This document shows, piece after piece, positions 4,805-15,225 of a stretch of DNA of 30,399 nt (the stretch's first letter is position 1; each line of letters opens with the position of its first letter). The position numbers and the translations under genes were made by a program. This DNA is from a virus. The stretch covers positions 1 through 30,399 of IMG/VR virus record IMGVR_UViG_3300042691_000990; one strand, written 5' to 3'. Below the pieces are notes generated by a model, which worked only from the letters and a program-made list of their open reading frames with translations, made no database searches and had not been told where the DNA came from.

Positions 4805-4847
4805 CTTTTACGGCATCCAAAAGTTTGTTGGCTTCTTCTATTGTCAT
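4662..4847 (-). CDS. small hypothetical phage protein, ATGA-coupled to the Mom-like gene
   Basis: The 61-residue frame starts at an ATG that overlaps the stop of the Mom-like gene as ATGA, a strong sign of a real, coupled start. Its first half (MTIEEANKLLDAVKDG, then AINEALFTTGDL) reads like a genuine small phage protein. Its second half (after about residue 42) loses that character, while the overlapping 73-residue frame becomes protein-like there. The true product may be short or frameshifted. Confidence 0.5.
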   Translation of the reverse strand: MTIEEANKLLDAVKDGQNTRPSAINEALFTTGDLQEITTTFDLDGWTERRKTICLVRSKTT

Positions 4848-5647
4848 GTTCTTTTTAAGTATGGTTTTATTAAGTGTGCAATGGCATCTAAATGTTGTTT
4901 TTGAATTTGTTTTGTGCCTCTAAAAGCAAAATATCTTCCTTTGCTATGTTGTTTTATTTTTTGTACTGTCGGGAAATACTTAACTACATTTTCAAATTTT
5001 GTGTCCCCACAAATTGCTCTAATACTTCTAGCAGTCCAAATTTTGCCGTTAATTAACCATCCATCTCTATCTAATTTTTTGCTTTTTACGTTAGGGTTTC
5101 CATCACGCATTGAGCCAACATAAGCAAATCCACACGCCTGATAAATTGTTCCAATTTCACCAGCGGCTTCATCTACTGTGCAAGTTATGACTTCATATTT
5201 TGATGGCAACATTTTCATGCTTTGCCTAATCAATTTACTTGCGCTATGTGGGTGCGCCCAATGAACACAAGCGCCTCTACTTAACAAAATCATTTTGCCT
5301 TCGTATCCGTATTTACTCCAATCAGCGCCAGCCGTGCCTTTTTCTCTAGAAATTTTGCCAAGGTTTTCTGAATACTCAGGTCCATAACAAACTACACCAG
5401 CACAAAAGCCTTCAAAAAAAATTCCGTAAGAATGCCAAACTACAGCAGGCATACAGCCCAACCACTCGTAATCTTCAATTATTTTTTGTGCCAGCCCATA
5501 AGTCACTTCTTTGATTTCGGCTTTTTTTATGTCTACATCAATGTTTTCCCACCAATTTCCAAGCAAGTCAGAATCGGAATTCTCTATGCGTCTTTTTTCT
5601 CTAATTTGCTTTTGCCAAGCAACTGAATTGTCTAGAAGTAAATTCAT
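4844..5647 (-). CDS. Mom-like DNA-modification acyltransferase
   Basis: The 267-residue protein matches the Mom family, which modifies adenine in phage Mu DNA and has a GNAT-like fold. Recognisable segments are LSRGACVHWAHPHSASKLI in the middle and TCTVDEAAGEIGTIYQACGF followed by YVGSM. These correspond to the family's SR...S..L block and its GxIGTIY block. The ATG at 5647 lies 4 bases after the preceding stop. A GTG at 5665 in the same frame would add 6 residues but has no clear Shine-Dalgarno. The enzyme probably protects phage DNA from restriction. The exact base product is unknown, and no Com-like translational activator was seen. Confidence 0.8.
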   Translation of the reverse strand: MNLLLDNSVAWQKQIREKRRIENSDSDLLGNWWENIDVDIKKAEIKEVTYGLAQKIIEDYEWLGCMPAVVWHSYGIFFEGFCAGVVCYGPEYSENLGKISREKGTAGADWSKYGYEGKMILLSRGACVHWAHPHSASKLIRQSMKMLPSKYEVITCTVDEAAGEIGTIYQACGFAYVGSMRDGNPNVKSKKLDRDGWLINGKIWTARSIRAICGDTKFENVVKYFPTVQKIKQHSKGRYFAFRGTKQIQKQHLDAIAHLIKPYLKRT

Positions 5648-5651
5648 GAAC

Positions 5652-6107
5652 TCAAATCTTTCCACGCAATTTGTCTAAATTTGAACGAATGTAATCGGGC
5701 ATAGGAACAGCTCTTTGGCGGTCTTTTTCAAGTTGCAGTAGGTAGGGGTCAATTTGTGTTTTTGTGGGCAAATCGGGTACTTCTGCGCCATCCCAACGCT
5801 GTTGATTCAGATAGACCAAAGGGGCTGGAATAAATGCGCCGTTGCCCTTTAGCCATTGCTCTGTTGTCTTCATCCAAACAACGTGCTTAATGATTTGGTC
5901 GGCAGAGTGTTCGCAAAGATACTTTGCCCATTTTTCTTCGCATTGCTTTTTTGCACCTTTGCGCGGTGTTGATGGGTACGCTTTCCAAAATCTATCAAAT
6001 CCACTTTCAAACATTTGAATCTCCATAGGTTTAGCTAGGGTGGATACCAGCAGTATCCTACCTTCTCCATCTCTGTTTACTTTGTTTAATTTATCTTCAT
6101 TGTTCAT
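5652..6107 (-). CDS. replication-associated phage protein (helicase-loader/replication-initiator-like)
   Basis: The 151-residue protein holds the motif FDRFWKAYPSTPRKGAKK near residues 36-51, then WMKTTEQWLKGNGAFIPAPLVYLNQQRWD. This block recurs in phage replication proteins of the DnaT/DnaD-tail and replisome-organiser type. ATG 6107 is chosen because AAAGAATTAAAA directly precedes it, close to the window's ribosome-site consensus. A TTG 15 bases further upstream has no such site. It is the first gene of the leftward operon. A loader of host helicase is the likely role, but the N-terminal winged-helix part of larger homologs is absent. Confidence 0.6.
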   Translation of the reverse strand: MNNEDKLNKVNRDGEGRILLVSTLAKPMEIQMFESGFDRFWKAYPSTPRKGAKKQCEEKWAKYLCEHSADQIIKHVVWMKTTEQWLKGNGAFIPAPLVYLNQQRWDGAEVPDLPTKTQIDPYLLQLEKDRQRAVPMPDYIRSNLDKLRGKI

Positions 6108-6487: not shown

Positions 6488-6516
6488 ATTATGCATCAAT
6501 TTTGCACAGTTGGAAA
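6488..6516 (-). promoter_or_regulatory. promoter for the candidate small RNA
   Basis: On the minus strand, TTTCCA (6516-6511, 4 of 6 matches to TTGACA) is followed after exactly 17 bases by CATAAT (6493-6488, 5 of 6 matches to TATAAT). Transcription would start near 6481, just before the RNA's first hairpin. The promoter overlaps the 3' end of the HTH gene. Confidence 0.55.
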
Positions 6517-6684
6517 GCCCTCAGTGTTTTCTGTAAACCATTCGGGCTTAACTTCTCGTAATTTTGCAATTTGTTTTTTTGGCAAAAGTTCGCCATATTG
6601 CGTTACTGCGGGTCGGCTCACTCCGAGAATACGCGCAAGTTGAGCCTTAGAGCCTGCGAGTTTTATTGCGATTTGTGTGTTCAT
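6496..6684 (-). CDS. Cro/YdaS-like small HTH repressor
   Basis: The 62-residue protein is almost entirely one helix-turn-helix unit: IAIKLAGSKAQLARILGVSRPAVTQYG, then LPKKQIAKLREVKPEWF. This is the Cro/YdaS-type fold in which GVSRPAVTQ is the recognition segment. It should bind operators in the adjacent control region, where CTTAAC repeats are found. There is no Shine-Dalgarno before the ATG, and a promoter is placed so that the transcript would start at or within a base or two of it (leaderless). Such proteins set lysogeny or early-gene timing. No integrase is in view, so temperate life is unproven. Confidence 0.8.
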   Translation of the reverse strand: MNTQIAIKLAGSKAQLARILGVSRPAVTQYGELLPKKQIAKLREVKPEWFTENTEGFPTVQN

Positions 6685-6859
6685 GTTAAGGATGATAACA
6701 AAGGGTTAACACAATGTCCAATGTTAATTTGGAAAATAAAAGTATTAAAAACTTAACTTTTTTTGTGAATTCGTTGCTTTTCCGCAAAAAAACTTAACTT
6801 TTTTTTATGGAAGTGAAAATTCGTTAAGTTTTAAGGCACAATTCTTTTATCGGCTTAAC
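6685..6859. promoter_or_regulatory. CTTAAC operator-like repeat array in the divergent control region
   Basis: The hexamer CTTAAC or its complement GTTAAG occurs at 6685-6690, 6752-6757, 6793-6798, 6824-6829 and 6854-6859. Three copies extend to AAAACTTAAC, two of them followed by a run of T. Centre spacings of 41, 31 and 30 bases approximate whole helical turns. The words GTGAATTCGTT and GTGAAAATTCGTT also repeat (6764, 6814). The array lies between the HTH gene and the rightward early genes, so it is probably the repressor's operator region. I could not fix the rightward promoter. Confidence 0.5.
6692..6720 (-). promoter_or_regulatory. promoter giving a leaderless HTH-gene mRNA
   Basis: On the minus strand, TGGACA (6720-6715, 5 of 6) and TATCAT (6697-6692, 5 of 6) are separated by 17 bases. 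The expected start near 6685 coincides with the ATG at 6684. This explains the lack of a ribosome-binding site, as for lambda cI from PRM. Confidence 0.5.
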
Positions 6860-6898
6860 AAACCGATACGAAACAAAATAAATTTCAAAGGATTAAAA

Positions 6899-7078
6899 AT
6901 GGAACAAATCGAAAATTTCAGAAAATTGCTTAAAGCGCAAAGCAAACAAATTATTTTTCAACTGTATTGCCAAACTTGTTTGTCACGAATCAATAGCGCA
7001 GACATTAAAGATATGCGCAAAAGCTGGATGATTCAAGACATTATTGAAGCAAAATTCGGTCATATCAAAAAAGCTTAA
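6899..7078 (+). CDS. small hypothetical phage protein, first early gene
   Basis: A 59-residue frame starts at an ATG preceded by AAAGGATTAAAA, the commonest ribosome-binding block of this window. It reads MEQIENFRKLLKAQSKQ, then a helical body with two Cys (YCQTC) and a basic C-terminus ending in HIKKA. No family is recognised. As the first gene after the operator region, it is probably expressed early. Confidence 0.7.
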   Translation: MEQIENFRKLLKAQSKQIIFQLYCQTCLSRINSADIKDMRKSWMIQDIIEAKFGHIKKA

Positions 7079-7094
7079 TTTAAAGGAATCAAAA

Positions 7095-7310
7095 ATGCAA
7101 CACGTTCAAATCACACCAACTCGCACATACAAAACTGCCGCCAATGCTCACAAAGCCGCAACTGACAAATTTGGCGATATGGATACAAGCGTTTTTGGTC
7201 CATTGCGCTACATTGTTATGCAACATACTGATGGTCGTTTTTTCCCTTTGTTTATTGGTGTTAACGCAATGCAATACGGCGTTCATTTTCATTTCAACAT
7301 TATTGCTTAA
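7095..7310 (+). CDS. hypothetical early protein upstream of hammerhead ribozyme 1
   Basis: The 71-residue protein starts at the ATG after AAAGGAATCAAA. It contains AANAHKAATDKFG and RYIVMQHTDGRFFPLFIG, a compact alpha-beta pattern seen in small phage proteins of unknown function. Its stop lies 2 bases before the first hammerhead ribozyme, so a terminating ribosome would cover the ribozyme's 5' strand. Confidence 0.75.
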   Translation: MQHVQITPTRTYKTAANAHKAATDKFGDMDTSVFGPLRYIVMQHTDGRFFPLFIGVNAMQYGVHFHFNIIA

Positions 7311-7312
7311 CA

Positions 7313-7364
7313 ACACAACTGATGAGGCGTAATGCGCCGAAACCCTAGCGATAGGGTCTTGTGT
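7313..7364 (+). ncRNA. type I hammerhead ribozyme 1
   Basis: All invariant core elements are present on the plus strand. Stem I pairs ACACAA (7313-7318) with TTGTGT (7359-7364). CTGATGA follows at 7319-7325. Stem II is GGCG/CGCC with a five-base loop (7326-7338), then GAAA (7339-7342). Stem III runs from that last A through CCCTA, a GNRA tetraloop GCGA (7348-7351), and TAGGGT. The cleavage residue is C7358, so self-cleavage falls between 7358 and 7359. Stems II and III are closed and stem I is open, which defines type I. It separates two cistrons of the rightward transcript. Confidence 0.93.
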
Positions 7365-7383
7365 AAATTTAAAAGGATTAAAA

Positions 7384-7599
7384 ATGATAGTTTACAAAAC
7401 TGAAGTTAAGCGTAACCCTTGGGCTTGTGAAGTAACTGTGAGCCGCACAAAAATTGGTCGTTGGGTTATTGACCGCCAATTGGCAAAAACAGAATTGCCA
7501 GCCAATACTTTTACTTGTTGGGAACACGCAGAATGGACAGGCAATGCGTGGGCAAATGAAGAACATTTGTGGCGCATAGAAGAACAAGAACACAACTGA
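7384..7599 (+). CDS. hypothetical protein flanked by two hammerhead ribozymes
   Basis: The 71-residue protein starts after AAAAGGATTAAAA. It is rich in Trp, with basic residues at the N-terminus (EVKRNPWACEVTVSRTKIGRW) and acidic ones at the end (EEHLWRIEEQEHN). The pattern suggests a small beta-rich fold. No family is recognised. Its TGA stop (7597-7599) is part of the catalytic CTGATGA of ribozyme 2. Cleavage at both ribozymes would release this gene with its ribosome-binding site as a 277-base RNA. Confidence 0.75.
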   Translation: MIVYKTEVKRNPWACEVTVSRTKIGRWVIDRQLAKTELPANTFTCWEHAEWTGNAWANEEHLWRIEEQEHN

Positions 7600-7641
7600 T
7601 GAGCCGTTAATCGGCGAAACTGCTGTGAAGCAGTCTTGTGT
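7590..7641 (+). ncRNA. type I hammerhead ribozyme 2
   Basis: Same architecture as ribozyme 1. Stem I pairs ACACAA (7590-7595) with TTGTGT (7636-7641). CTGATGA lies at 7596-7602. Stem II is GCCG/CGGC, then GAAA (7616-7619). Stem III is ACTGCT/AGCAGT around a GNRA loop GTGA. The cleavage residue is C7635. Relative to ribozyme 1, stems II and III have different sequences that keep pairing, while the core and stem I are identical. This is internal covariation evidence. The upstream gene's stop codon is inside the core. Confidence 0.93.
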
Positions 7642-7668
7642 AAACTTAACAATCAAAGGAAATTGAAA

Positions 7669-8634
7669 ATGGCTCACTTAATCGAAAACAACGCAATCAC
7701 TGGCAAAGCAGAAATTGCTTACGCAAATGCAACGCCTTGGCATGGTCTTGGTCAGCAGTTAACGCAAAATGCACCCATAGACGTATGGCGTAAAGAAGCA
7801 GGTTTAGATTGGTCTGCAAAGCTGTCTCCCATCATGTTTACTTGGGATGGTCAGAATTATTCCGAAATGGAAAACCAAAAAGTTATTTATCGCGATGACA
7901 CAAATCAGCCGCTTGGCGTTGTGACTGACCGCTACAAAGTTCACCAGCCAGCAGAAGTATTGGAGTTTTTCAATACGCTTGTTCAATCGGCAGGATTCAC
8001 TTTAGAAGTTGCCGGTGCTATCAAGGGTGGAAAACGCATTTGGGCATTGGCTAATGTCAACAAAGAAGCTGTCGTTTTGCAAGATGATGCCGTGCGCGGT
8101 TACTTGCTGTTAAGCACATCTTTTGATGGGACAGCGGCAACCATTGGGCAATTCACAAGCATTCGGGTTGTATGCAATAACACTTTATCAATGGCAGACC
8201 AAGAAAAAGCACCAAGTCGCGTTGTATTGACTCACGGCACACAGTTTGACCAGTCGCTAATGCGTGACCGCTTGGGGCTTGTTGTAAGCGGTTTTGAGGG
8301 CATGATGGACAAGTACCGCAAACTTGCCCGACAAGGTGTTTCCAGCGAATTTGCGCGGGACTTTACCAATACGCTGTTTCCTGCCAGCTACAACCCACAG
8401 ACCAACACATTCAAAGAATCACGCGGTTTTAAGCGTGTTTTGGAATTGTTTGATGGTGCGGGTATGGGTGCTAACAATCATGGCGTATACGGCACAAAAT
8501 GGGGCTTGCTGAACGCTGTCACGCAGTACGTTGACCATGAACGTGGACACAATGTCGATACACGCATGAACAATGCTTGGTTTGGCAATGGCAACCGCAT
8601 GAAGTCACAAGCTGAAGAATTGCTGTTAGCTTAA
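7669..8634 (+). CDS. DUF932 (phage/plasmid-like) protein
   Basis: The 321-residue protein starts at ATG 7669 behind CAAAGGAAATTGAAA. An in-frame TTG at 7636 lies inside the ribozyme and is not used. It matches the DUF932 family common in phages and plasmids: NATPWHGLGQQL near the N-terminus, VTDRYKVHQPAEVLEFF, a central SIRVVCNNTLSMA, and a C-terminal THGVYGTK-like region (NHGVYGTKWGLLNAVTQYVDHERG). The molecular function is unknown, though it is often encoded beside recombination genes such as ERF, as here. It lies directly downstream of ribozyme 2, so its mRNA would begin with a 5'-hydroxyl after cleavage. Confidence 0.88.
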   Translation: MAHLIENNAITGKAEIAYANATPWHGLGQQLTQNAPIDVWRKEAGLDWSAKLSPIMFTWDGQNYSEMENQKVIYRDDTNQPLGVVTDRYKVHQPAEVLEFFNTLVQSAGFTLEVAGAIKGGKRIWALANVNKEAVVLQDDAVRGYLLLSTSFDGTAATIGQFTSIRVVCNNTLSMADQEKAPSRVVLTHGTQFDQSLMRDRLGLVVSGFEGMMDKYRKLARQGVSSEFARDFTNTLFPASYNPQTNTFKESRGFKRVLELFDGAGMGANNHGVYGTKWGLLNAVTQYVDHERGHNVDTRMNNAWFGNGNRMKSQAEELLLA

Positions 8635-8641
8635 CTTTACC

Positions 8642-8655
8642 GCCCCTTCGGGGGC
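8642..8655 (+). other. UUCG-loop RNA hairpin after DUF932
   Basis: GCCCC (8642-8646), TTCG (8647-8650) and GGGGC (8651-8655) form an exceptionally stable C(UUCG)G tetraloop hairpin 7 bases after the DUF932 stop. No T run follows and the next gene starts at 8677. It is more likely a mRNA-stability or processing element than a full terminator. Confidence 0.6.
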
Positions 8656-8676
8656 ATCATTTAAAAAGGATTAAAA

Positions 8677-8808
8677 ATGTACCGCGAACACTATCAAATC
8701 AAATTGGAAAAGCGTAGCAACGCCGCTTATGAATACTTGCTTGCGCTTGTGGCAGGGCTTGTATTTGCATCGCCGCTAATCATTCAAATCATCAAGGAGT
8801 GGAAATGA
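8677..8808 (+). CDS. small single-span membrane protein
   Basis: A 43-residue frame starts after AAAAGGATTAAAA. Its N-terminal third is charged (HYQIKLEKRSNAAYEY) and is followed by a hydrophobic segment LLALVAGLVFASPLIIQII of about 19 residues, then KEWK. It is predicted to cross the inner membrane once. The stop overlaps the next start as ATGA, so the two are coupled. The function is unknown. Small phage membrane proteins of this kind sometimes affect superinfection or membrane physiology. Confidence 0.65.
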   Translation: MYREHYQIKLEKRSNAAYEYLLALVAGLVFASPLIIQIIKEWK

Positions 8809-9065
8809 ACCAGTTTAATTTTCACCTTGACAATGATGATGCCGTGCTCATTGAATATGAGCCAGTTGACTATGATGACCACGGAAACATAGAGTTTGAA
8901 ATCTATGCTTATACCGAAGACGGAAAGGAGATTTGGGATGACCTTACCTCAAGCGAGCAAACCAAAATTGAAACGCAAGTCAAAAAAGATTATGCTGAAA
9001 TCTGTCGTGACAATGCCGCAGAAGCCGCCATCAGTCAATGGGAGTCAAGTCGTGACTTCCCATAA
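8805..9065 (+). CDS. acidic hypothetical phage protein
   Basis: The 86-residue protein starts at the ATG that overlaps the preceding stop, with AAGGAG just upstream. It is very acidic (DNDDAVLIEYEPVDYDDHGN). Such DNA-mimic-like charge is common among phage inhibitors of host enzymes, but this alone proves nothing. A C-terminal helix contains NAAEAAISQWESSRD. It overlaps the next gene by 14 bases. No family is recognised. Confidence 0.7.
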   Translation: MNQFNFHLDNDDAVLIEYEPVDYDDHGNIEFEIYAYTEDGKEIWDDLTSSEQTKIETQVKKDYAEICRDNAAEAAISQWESSRDFP

Positions 9066-9261
9066 TTTGCCCTATACCACGCGAACTGGCTTAAAAATCG
9101 GTTCGTCCTACACGCCACCTACCAAGGTGCGTATGACCGCCGAGGATGAGCATTGGCAAGCCGTTTTGTTGGGCATCAAGCCTTCACATAACTGGGCTTT
9201 GTTTGTAACTTATATCCTCGGAATTTTGACCTTTCTTAAATTTTTAATTGGAACGAAATGA
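9052..9261 (+). CDS. small C-tail-anchored membrane protein (GTG start)
   Basis: The 69-residue frame is assigned a GTG start at 9052 because GGGAG lies 7 bases upstream and coding character begins there. The N-terminal part (TGLKIGSSYTPP, then MTAEDEHWQAVLLG) is soluble. The end ALFVTYILGILTFLKFLIGTK is a hydrophobic span. Its stop overlaps the next start as ATGA. Topology would place the bulk in the cytoplasm. The function is unknown. Confidence 0.6.
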   Translation: MTSHNLPYTTRTGLKIGSSYTPPTKVRMTAEDEHWQAVLLGIKPSHNWALFVTYILGILTFLKFLIGTK

Positions 9262-9452
9262 ATGCAGATTATTTGATTAACCATGCAAAGCAGACCAGCG
9301 ACATTTCCTATCGTGATGGCGTAGCAGAAGACCGCTTGGCTTATCGGTGCGGAATGTTAGAGGGTTACATCAAAACGCTTTGCCAAGAAATTGAAAACCA
9401 CAAAGACGAAATCTTGGCACTAAACCGCCAACTAATTGAAAAGGATAATTAA
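9258..9452 (+). CDS. small helical hypothetical protein
   Basis: The 64-residue protein starts by ATGA overlap. The second half (GMLEGYIKTLCQEIENHKDEILALNRQ) is a likely coiled coil. It directly precedes the ERF gene, as small helper proteins often do in phage recombination cassettes. No family is recognised. Confidence 0.7.
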   Translation: MNADYLINHAKQTSDISYRDGVAEDRLAYRCGMLEGYIKTLCQEIENHKDEILALNRQLIEKDN

Positions 9453-14109: not shown

Positions 14110-15225
14110 TTACCTAAAGAATTTGCCGACCATCCAACAAACTACGCTGTATCTTTCGCCCTCTGTCACATCTTCAACGCCGTGCATGATGAACGATGGA
14201 AACACAAGCACAGTTCCTTTTGTTTGTGGTGGATAGTATTTGTCTTGCCCATTCTGCAAGAAGAACTTTCCACCCTTGAAATTATCGTTCAGGAAAGCTA
14301 ATACAGTCAACTTGCGACATTCATCTCCGTGTTGGATAAAGGTGTCTACATGGGCTTGATATCGACCGCCAGCAGGGTAAGCAAGAAACTCAGCTTGGTT
14401 GGCATGGGTAATGTCAAACTTCCAAGCCGCATGGTTAGCCGCCAAGCCAGCCGCCGCAAGTCTGCCGCCAATGTCCTTATATGTTGGCAACATTACTCGC
14501 TTAACATTTCTTATTTCTAAGTTAACTATTCCAGCATCGCCACCAATAAAAGGTTGTTCTTTGGGTATCTCATCCTTGGTGTAAAGCCTAATTAACGAAT
14601 CGCAGGCATCGCTTGTCAAAATGTCGCTGTATATCCAATGGCGCAATTCTTCGGGCGGTGGCAAATTAAGCGCGGGTCGTTTGTCAAACTTCCATTCAAC
14701 GTGTTTGCCATCAGCATCAACGTAATGCAAAAAGACTTGGGCTTGCCATTTACCTTCTGTGTATGGTTCACGCCAATGGTGCTTTTCCATGCCCCTATAA
14801 AGCACAGCATCACCAACAGCCATGTCAATGCGGCTTGCGTTTTGCTTGCCCTCATCGCCCATGTATATGCCCCACACATCGCCCTCAAAACCAAGGGTTA
14901 GGGTTGCGCTTATCTCACAGCTTTCGCGGTCTGTATGGCACTCTAAAACCTCGTCAGGCGCATATAAACGAGCATAGGAATAAGTTGGGTATAGGCGTTT
15001 GCCTGATGCCTTTTCAAAGTGCGGCAAAAGGTCAACCAGTAATTTGTCAAACACCATTGCGCCATGTACAGCTTGAGATTTTGGGCATTGGTCATCTTGC
15101 GTTGTCTTTTGTTCGGCAACAAGACGCTGTAATTCTGCGGTTAACTCAGCGCATGATTCTTTTGCAAGAAAGTTTTTAAGATGCACATATTTTTCTACGG
15201 CAAATTGACTGAGTTGGTCGCACAT
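14110..15225 (-). CDS. tandem 2OG-Fe(II) oxygenase (two fused domains)
   Basis: The 371-residue protein holds two dioxygenase domains. The first has SYARLYAPDEVLECHTDRE with His97-x-Asp99 and a distal His near 149-150. The second is a prolyl-4-hydroxylase/PKHD type with GGRYQAHVDTF (His292-x-Asp294), FPSFIMHGV (His348) and ERYSVVCW (Arg358). The HxD...H triad binds Fe(II), and Arg358 would hold 2-oxoglutarate. The substrate is unknown. Placement between the fibre and lysis genes suggests hydroxylation of a virion or host surface protein. The gene starts after AAAGGAATAAAT. Confidence 0.85.
   Translation of the reverse strand: MCDQLSQFAVEKYVHLKNFLAKESCAELTAELQRLVAEQKTTQDDQCPKSQAVHGAMVFDKLLVDLLPHFEKASGKRLYPTYSYARLYAPDEVLECHTDRESCEISATLTLGFEGDVWGIYMGDEGKQNASRIDMAVGDAVLYRGMEKHHWREPYTEGKWQAQVFLHYVDADGKHVEWKFDKRPALNLPPPEELRHWIYSDILTSDACDSLIRLYTKDEIPKEQPFIGGDAGIVNLEIRNVKRVMLPTYKDIGGRLAAAGLAANHAAWKFDITHANQAEFLAYPAGGRYQAHVDTFIQHGDECRKLTVLAFLNDNFKGGKFFLQNGQDKYYPPQTKGTVLVFPSFIMHGVEDVTEGERYSVVCWMVGKFFR

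Follow-up and report, generated by a model that had tools for sequence, protein, structure and literature searches.

Compact type I hammerhead ribozymes at phage gene junctions and their probable role in punctuating polycistronic transcripts

Sequence, folding, and covariance analyses of a 30.4-kb virus record (30,399 nt, IMG/VR record IMGVR_UViG_3300042691_000990; here called the window), which carries phage capsid and tape-measure genes, identified two type I hammerhead ribozymes, HHR1 and HHR2, that bracket a small phage gene. They belong to a family of compact type I hammerheads whose position at gene junctions suggests that they punctuate the polycistronic phage transcript, probably self-processing it into complete monocistronic units. 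This family is a compact variant of the clustered prophage hammerheads reported in 2011. Hammerheads flanking small phage genes were already known (PMC3088659; PMC6155905); in prophages, several flank single genes or short blocks, and processing of long transcripts has been proposed for them (PMC3088659). An earlier sequence-only reading of this DNA had held the pair to be exceptional, which it is to a lesser degree: a 2011 paper had already described gene-flanking hammerheads in prophages (PMC3088659), and two or more copies occur on many of the viral contigs found here.

HHR1 (7313-7364) and HHR2 (7590-7641) lie, with all their elements, on the plus strand and were recognized by sequence, fold, and a covariance model, R1. 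In HHR1, stem I is formed by ACACAA (7313-7318) and TTGTGT (7359-7364), and the core consists of CUGAUGA (7319-7325), GAAA (7339-7342), and UC (7357-7358), with stem II at 7326-7338 (GGCG..CGCC) and stem III at 7343-7356 (CCCTA GCGA TAGGG). HHR2 has the identical stem I sequence (7590-7595 and 7636-7641), the core elements CUGAUGA (7596-7602), GAAA (7616-7619), and UC (7634-7635), stem II at 7603-7615 (GCCG..CGGC), and stem III at 7620-7633 (CTGCT GTGA AGCAG). The loops of stem II are UAAUG in HHR1 and UUAAU in HHR2. All required core positions (C3 U4 G5 A6 N7 G8 A9, G12 A13 A14 A15.1, and U16.1 H17) are present in both copies as CTGATGA, GAAA, and TC; stem I is the open helix and stems II and III are closed by loops, which defines type I. 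The MFE folds contain the three-way hammerhead junction for both (z about -2.5). Cleavage is predicted between 7358 and 7359 and between 7635 and 7636. Sequence and folds thus bear out the earlier claim of two type I hammerheads with an intact core at these coordinates, and the two cut positions that it had predicted hold on the sequence. The pattern CTGATGA-N(8-25)-GAAA occurs twice in the whole window, only at the HHR1 and HHR2 sites, against 0.25 occurrences expected from shuffles. A chance origin of the motifs was ruled out by the shuffles, by a scan of reversed sequence, and by the stem I pairing found in hits to a core-only pattern. Neither ribozyme was read as an intrinsic terminator, as a terminator scan of positions 6500-9300 listed none at either site.

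Both ribozymes are intercistronic, as the sequence-only reading had placed them, with translated ORFs on either side, all on the plus strand. The upstream small gene (71 aa, 7095-7310) has its stop codon 2 nt before HHR1. The bracketed gene (71 aa, 7384-7599) has a weak match to phrog_29640 in PHROGs, and its stop codon, TGA at 7597-7599, lies inside the HHR2 core; homologues occupy the same slot in three related loci (L008, L011, and L018). Downstream, a DUF932 gene (321 aa, 7669-8634; Pfam PF06067, E = 1.1e-52; phrog_1221, E = 4.5e-63) has its start codon 33 nt past the second predicted cut, and a gene for an Erf-type annealing protein or recombinase lies further along the same operon. The middle fragment of 277 nt foreseen by the earlier reading follows from the cut positions (7359-7635, plus strand); this predicted RNA would consist of a 25-nt leader, the 71-codon ORF, and the HHR2 stems at its 3' end. 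No named phage was found among the blastn matches to window positions 7090-8640.

The covariance models used differ in whether they detect HHR1 and HHR2. The sequence-only reading had set beforehand, as grounds for refuting its claim, a score below threshold for both copies in an Rfam model search; both copies scored below threshold, which formally counts against the hammerhead claim. No Rfam 15 family reached its gathering score for either copy. Under a permissive search, the best match of both was RAGATH-1-hammerhead (RF03152), at 22.8 and 21.7 bits where the gathering score is 56.3; Hammerhead_3 (RF00008) followed in another permutation, at 17.2 and 15.9 bits with 48.5 required, and Hammerhead_1 (RF00163) was unlisted for the stretch even at E 10. 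We built the covariance model R1 from 40 diverse phage hammerheads that included none of the window's stem I types. It scored HHR1 at 65.2 bits (E = 1.4e-15) and HHR2 at 66.4 bits (E = 6.6e-16). Among 35 hammerheads in 11 sources, R1 found all, with E values of 3.4e-11 or lower, and the Rfam models found none at gathering score. Since Rfam also misses these 35, its silence was not taken as a refutation; the failure lies with the Rfam models and not with HHR1 and HHR2. These results expose a blind spot of Rfam 15 for compact phage hammerheads, all 35 of those in the tested sources falling under the gathering score.

Hammerhead_1 and Hammerhead_3 (RF00163 and RF00008) describe the same catalytic core and three-helix junction as are seen in the window copies, and RAGATH-1 (RF03152) likewise has a short open stem I and the core CUGAUGA/GAAA/GUC. 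Compared with the RAGATH-1 model, stem III is shorter in the window copies, and stem II of the family differs and carries a UNANU loop.

Between HHR1 and HHR2, stems II and III have changed in sequence with their pairs kept, as had been correctly noted from the sequence. The claim built on this comparison, that pairing is under selection, was thinly supported by two copies, and it is covariation in the wider family that supplies the evidence. The least circular test used the 137 hits of a core-only pattern, which set no condition on the pairing of stem I. Stem I was paired at all six positions in 87% of these hits, the free stem II pairs in 93%, and stem III in 89%; when the partners were slid by 1 or 2 positions, full stem I pairing fell to 0%. 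In 40 diverse copies without the window's stem I types, whose rows had been selected as paired, both partners vary in 12 of the 14 pairs. Compensatory changes thus occur in all three stems, and we therefore conclude that RNA pairing is under selection. Close orthologues at one site keep the stem I sequence, and stems II and III are replaced fast with pairing intact. Coding overlap was considered as the cause of stem I conservation and rejected, as stem I is about equally conserved where it is non-coding. The overlap leaves its own trace in the window clade: several unrelated small proteins end in -HN (for example window 7590-7599 and loci L004, L008, L010, L011, L016, and L019) because stem I of the ribozyme encodes those residues.

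Relatives of the window pair are numerous. A pattern with the window's stem I matched 20 viral contigs, many of which hold more than one copy (two or three); the partner copy usually has the stem I GAACAA/TTGTTC. Broader pattern scans of viral contigs gave at least 514 loci with at least 828 hammerheads, at least 669 of them distinct; the full-structure finder returned a single match in reversed sequence against the 828 in true sequence (514 loci). The family follows one plan. Stem I has exactly six pairs in 646 of the 669 distinct copies among the matches listed, and it is followed by an A/A mismatch in 117 of the 137 hits to a pattern that left this position free. The core is CTGA[T/C/A/G]GA, and the predicted cut follows UC or UA. 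For those copies sampled with no loop imposed, the three fixed positions of the stem II loop U-N-A-N-U were conserved at 99%, 95%, and 83%, and among the matches listed stem III is short, with a loop that is mostly GNRA or UNCG. The conserved UNANU loop, together with the conserved A/A and AA where stem I ends, would fit a putative tertiary contact between the stem II loop and the periphery of stem I. R1 also matched two isolated phages, Flavobacterium phage elemoA (MT497017; E = 1.6e-12) and Pelagibacter phage HTVC131P (OR420738; E = 3.4e-10). A strict pattern gave only three matches in bacterial genome contigs, namely in Mucilaginibacter (L140), a Burkholderiales MAG (L141), and a Pseudomonadales MAG (L142), which presumably are prophages or phage contigs in bins.

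The placement of these ribozymes at gene junctions is what points to a function. Among the matches listed, the ribozyme itself contains the upstream stop codon in 330 of the 636 copies with an upstream ORF, and the stop codon precedes C3 by 7 to 12 nt in another 238; the downstream start codon lies 18 to 35 nt after the cut (median, 26) in 531 of the 610 copies with a downstream ORF. Under a stricter ORF rule applied to the first sample (n = 201), the upstream arrangement was seen in 151 copies against 16% of random positions and the downstream arrangement in 149 against 19%. All copies lie on one strand in every one of the 191 multi-copy loci among the matches listed. With stop and start codons so placed, cutting would leave both neighboring genes whole.

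The simplest and most likely account of these observations is that the polycistronic phage mRNA processes itself. Each ribozyme would fold after it is transcribed and cut itself in the intercistronic gap, with no protein enzyme. As each cut would come after the stop codon of the upstream gene and leave 25 to 33 nt ahead of the start codon that follows, each released piece would be a complete mRNA: the upstream piece would end in the stem II and III hairpins with a 2',3'-cyclic phosphate, and the downstream piece would carry a 5'-hydroxyl on a short leader that contains its ribosome-binding site. Cutting would thereby separate neighboring genes and set the ends and stability of their mRNAs without a host enzyme. 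A precedent for such an outcome is the early mRNA of T7, in which RNase III sites are cut between cistrons to give monocistronic mRNAs with 3' hairpins, also next to the RNA polymerase gene; that processing requires the host enzyme, whereas a ribozyme would do the cutting in the present case, with 5'-hydroxyl and cyclic phosphate ends as the result. By analogy with the T7 sites, cleavage may affect mRNA stability, and it may also affect translation. That cleavage would occur in the cell is suggested by the intact core, the covariation, and the published activity of prophage hammerheads (PMC3088659). In that work, Perreault et al. found that three tandem prophage hammerhead sets cleaved during in vitro transcription and that A. 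tumefaciens prophage hammerheads also cleaved in E. coli, while 4 of the 18 consensus hammerheads tested showed no cleavage (PMC3088659). One point against a processing role is that a terminating ribosome would cover the core and could suppress the fold. No gene logic backs the role, because most flanking genes are without known function.

A 2017 review called the role of prokaryotic hammerheads an open question (PMC6155905). The geometry measured here, with stop codons that fall at or within the ribozyme, start codons that follow the cut at about 26 nt, and co-directional copies, offers a testable answer, mRNA punctuation, and the likely members in elemoA and HTVC131P, which have named hosts, make this role testable in infected cells. 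The clusters described by Perreault et al. (PMC3088659) likewise comprise several hammerheads flanking phage genes; in comparison, hundreds of type I copies with one compact plan are described here in viral contigs, and the stop/start geometry is measured. Our search of the open-access literature returned no paper on this compact phage hammerhead family or on its stop/start geometry.

A wider reading can be entertained tentatively. Throughout phages, compact hammerheads might dissect whole polycistronic transcripts into monocistronic and, in some phages, circular mRNAs, replace processing by host RNase, and be tuned by terminating ribosomes. It draws on a T7-like contig of 39.8 kb (loci L521 and L522; G021 10000-39798), which also speaks for mRNA punctuation itself. 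The polymerase, primase-helicase, and DNA polymerase genes of this contig are T7-like, and R1 has 14 matches on it, all on one strand, with ribozymes on both sides of the single-subunit RNA polymerase gene.

Cleavage might instead be coupled to translation, in that a ribosome terminating at the ribozyme would block folding and cutting would report translation of the upstream gene. The stop codon inside the ribozyme in about half of the listed copies speaks for this, as does the use of the core's own UGA as a stop codon in HHR2 of the window. We nevertheless consider such coupling unlikely, as the overlap could arise simply from tight gene packing, the effect would differ in the 238 listed copies with the stop codon 7 to 12 nt before the core, and there is no evidence of a ligand or switch.

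We think it quite improbable that the two cuts serve to free the 277-nt fragment for joining of its ends, by HHR2 or a host ligase, into a stable circular mRNA that would encode the 71-aa protein. The route would run through pairing of the 5'-hydroxyl end UUGUGU with ACACAA of HHR2, as in retrozymes and viroid-like RNAs, in which two hammerheads of the same orientation likewise bracket a short RNA with religatable ends. The identical stem I of HHR1 and HHR2 would allow it, and in the MFE fold of the fragment its own ends do pair into the HHR2 junction. Family-wide, full pairing between the 3' strand of a copy and the 5' strand of its next neighbor is possible in 43.6% of adjacent pairs, compared with 7.0% between loci, most often at short spacing, and adjacent copies share stem I in 33% of cases against 3% between loci, stems II and III being shared in 6% each. 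In contrast to retrozymes, the insert here is a phage protein gene inside an operon, and neighboring stem I sequences usually differ in the window clade: most relatives have GAACAA/TTGTTC first and ACACAA/TTGTGT second, sequences that match only in part. Orthologues at one site also have an unusually conserved stem I, and concerted change of stem I was seen in 0 of 94 comparisons with orthologous neighbors, a weak negative since the comparisons are mutually non-independent. On these two grounds a shared stem I needs no ligation, and coevolution of neighboring stems was rejected as its sign; moreover, Perreault et al. could not detect circular or spliced products (PMC3088659).

Least of all do we credit a role of the conserved core and stem I as linkers through which a phage recombinase exchanges gene cassettes, with RNA cleavage incidental: several unrelated small genes do fill the slot before the second ribozyme in the window clade, and an Erf-type recombinase is encoded in the same operon, but ribozyme junctions are conserved (at least 75% identity) in 41% of cases against 38% for plain junctions of the same genes and are thus swapped no more often, which rejects a recombination hot spot, and selection on RNA pairing is evident from the compensatory changes in the three stems.

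Some further observations concern the relatives and the window. Two sites, in the loci L006 (5195-5249) and L013 (2399-2453), retain the core and intact strands of stem I, yet R1 matched neither; stem II of the L006 copy is mispaired next to the core, and both copies are probably decayed or variant. In the window, a strong hairpin (GCCCC-TTCG-GGGGC, 8641-8657) lies just past the DUF932 stop codon, ahead of the next gene, without a U-run after it. An ORF at 14110-15225 on the minus strand resembles a PHROG named ferrochelatase in its first half and 2OG-Fe(II) oxygenase PHROGs in its second. Also on the minus strand are genes resembling glutamine amidotransferase (451-1056), ParB-like nuclease (2155-2772), and Mom-like DNA modification (4844-5665) genes, which possibly serve to produce modified phage DNA.
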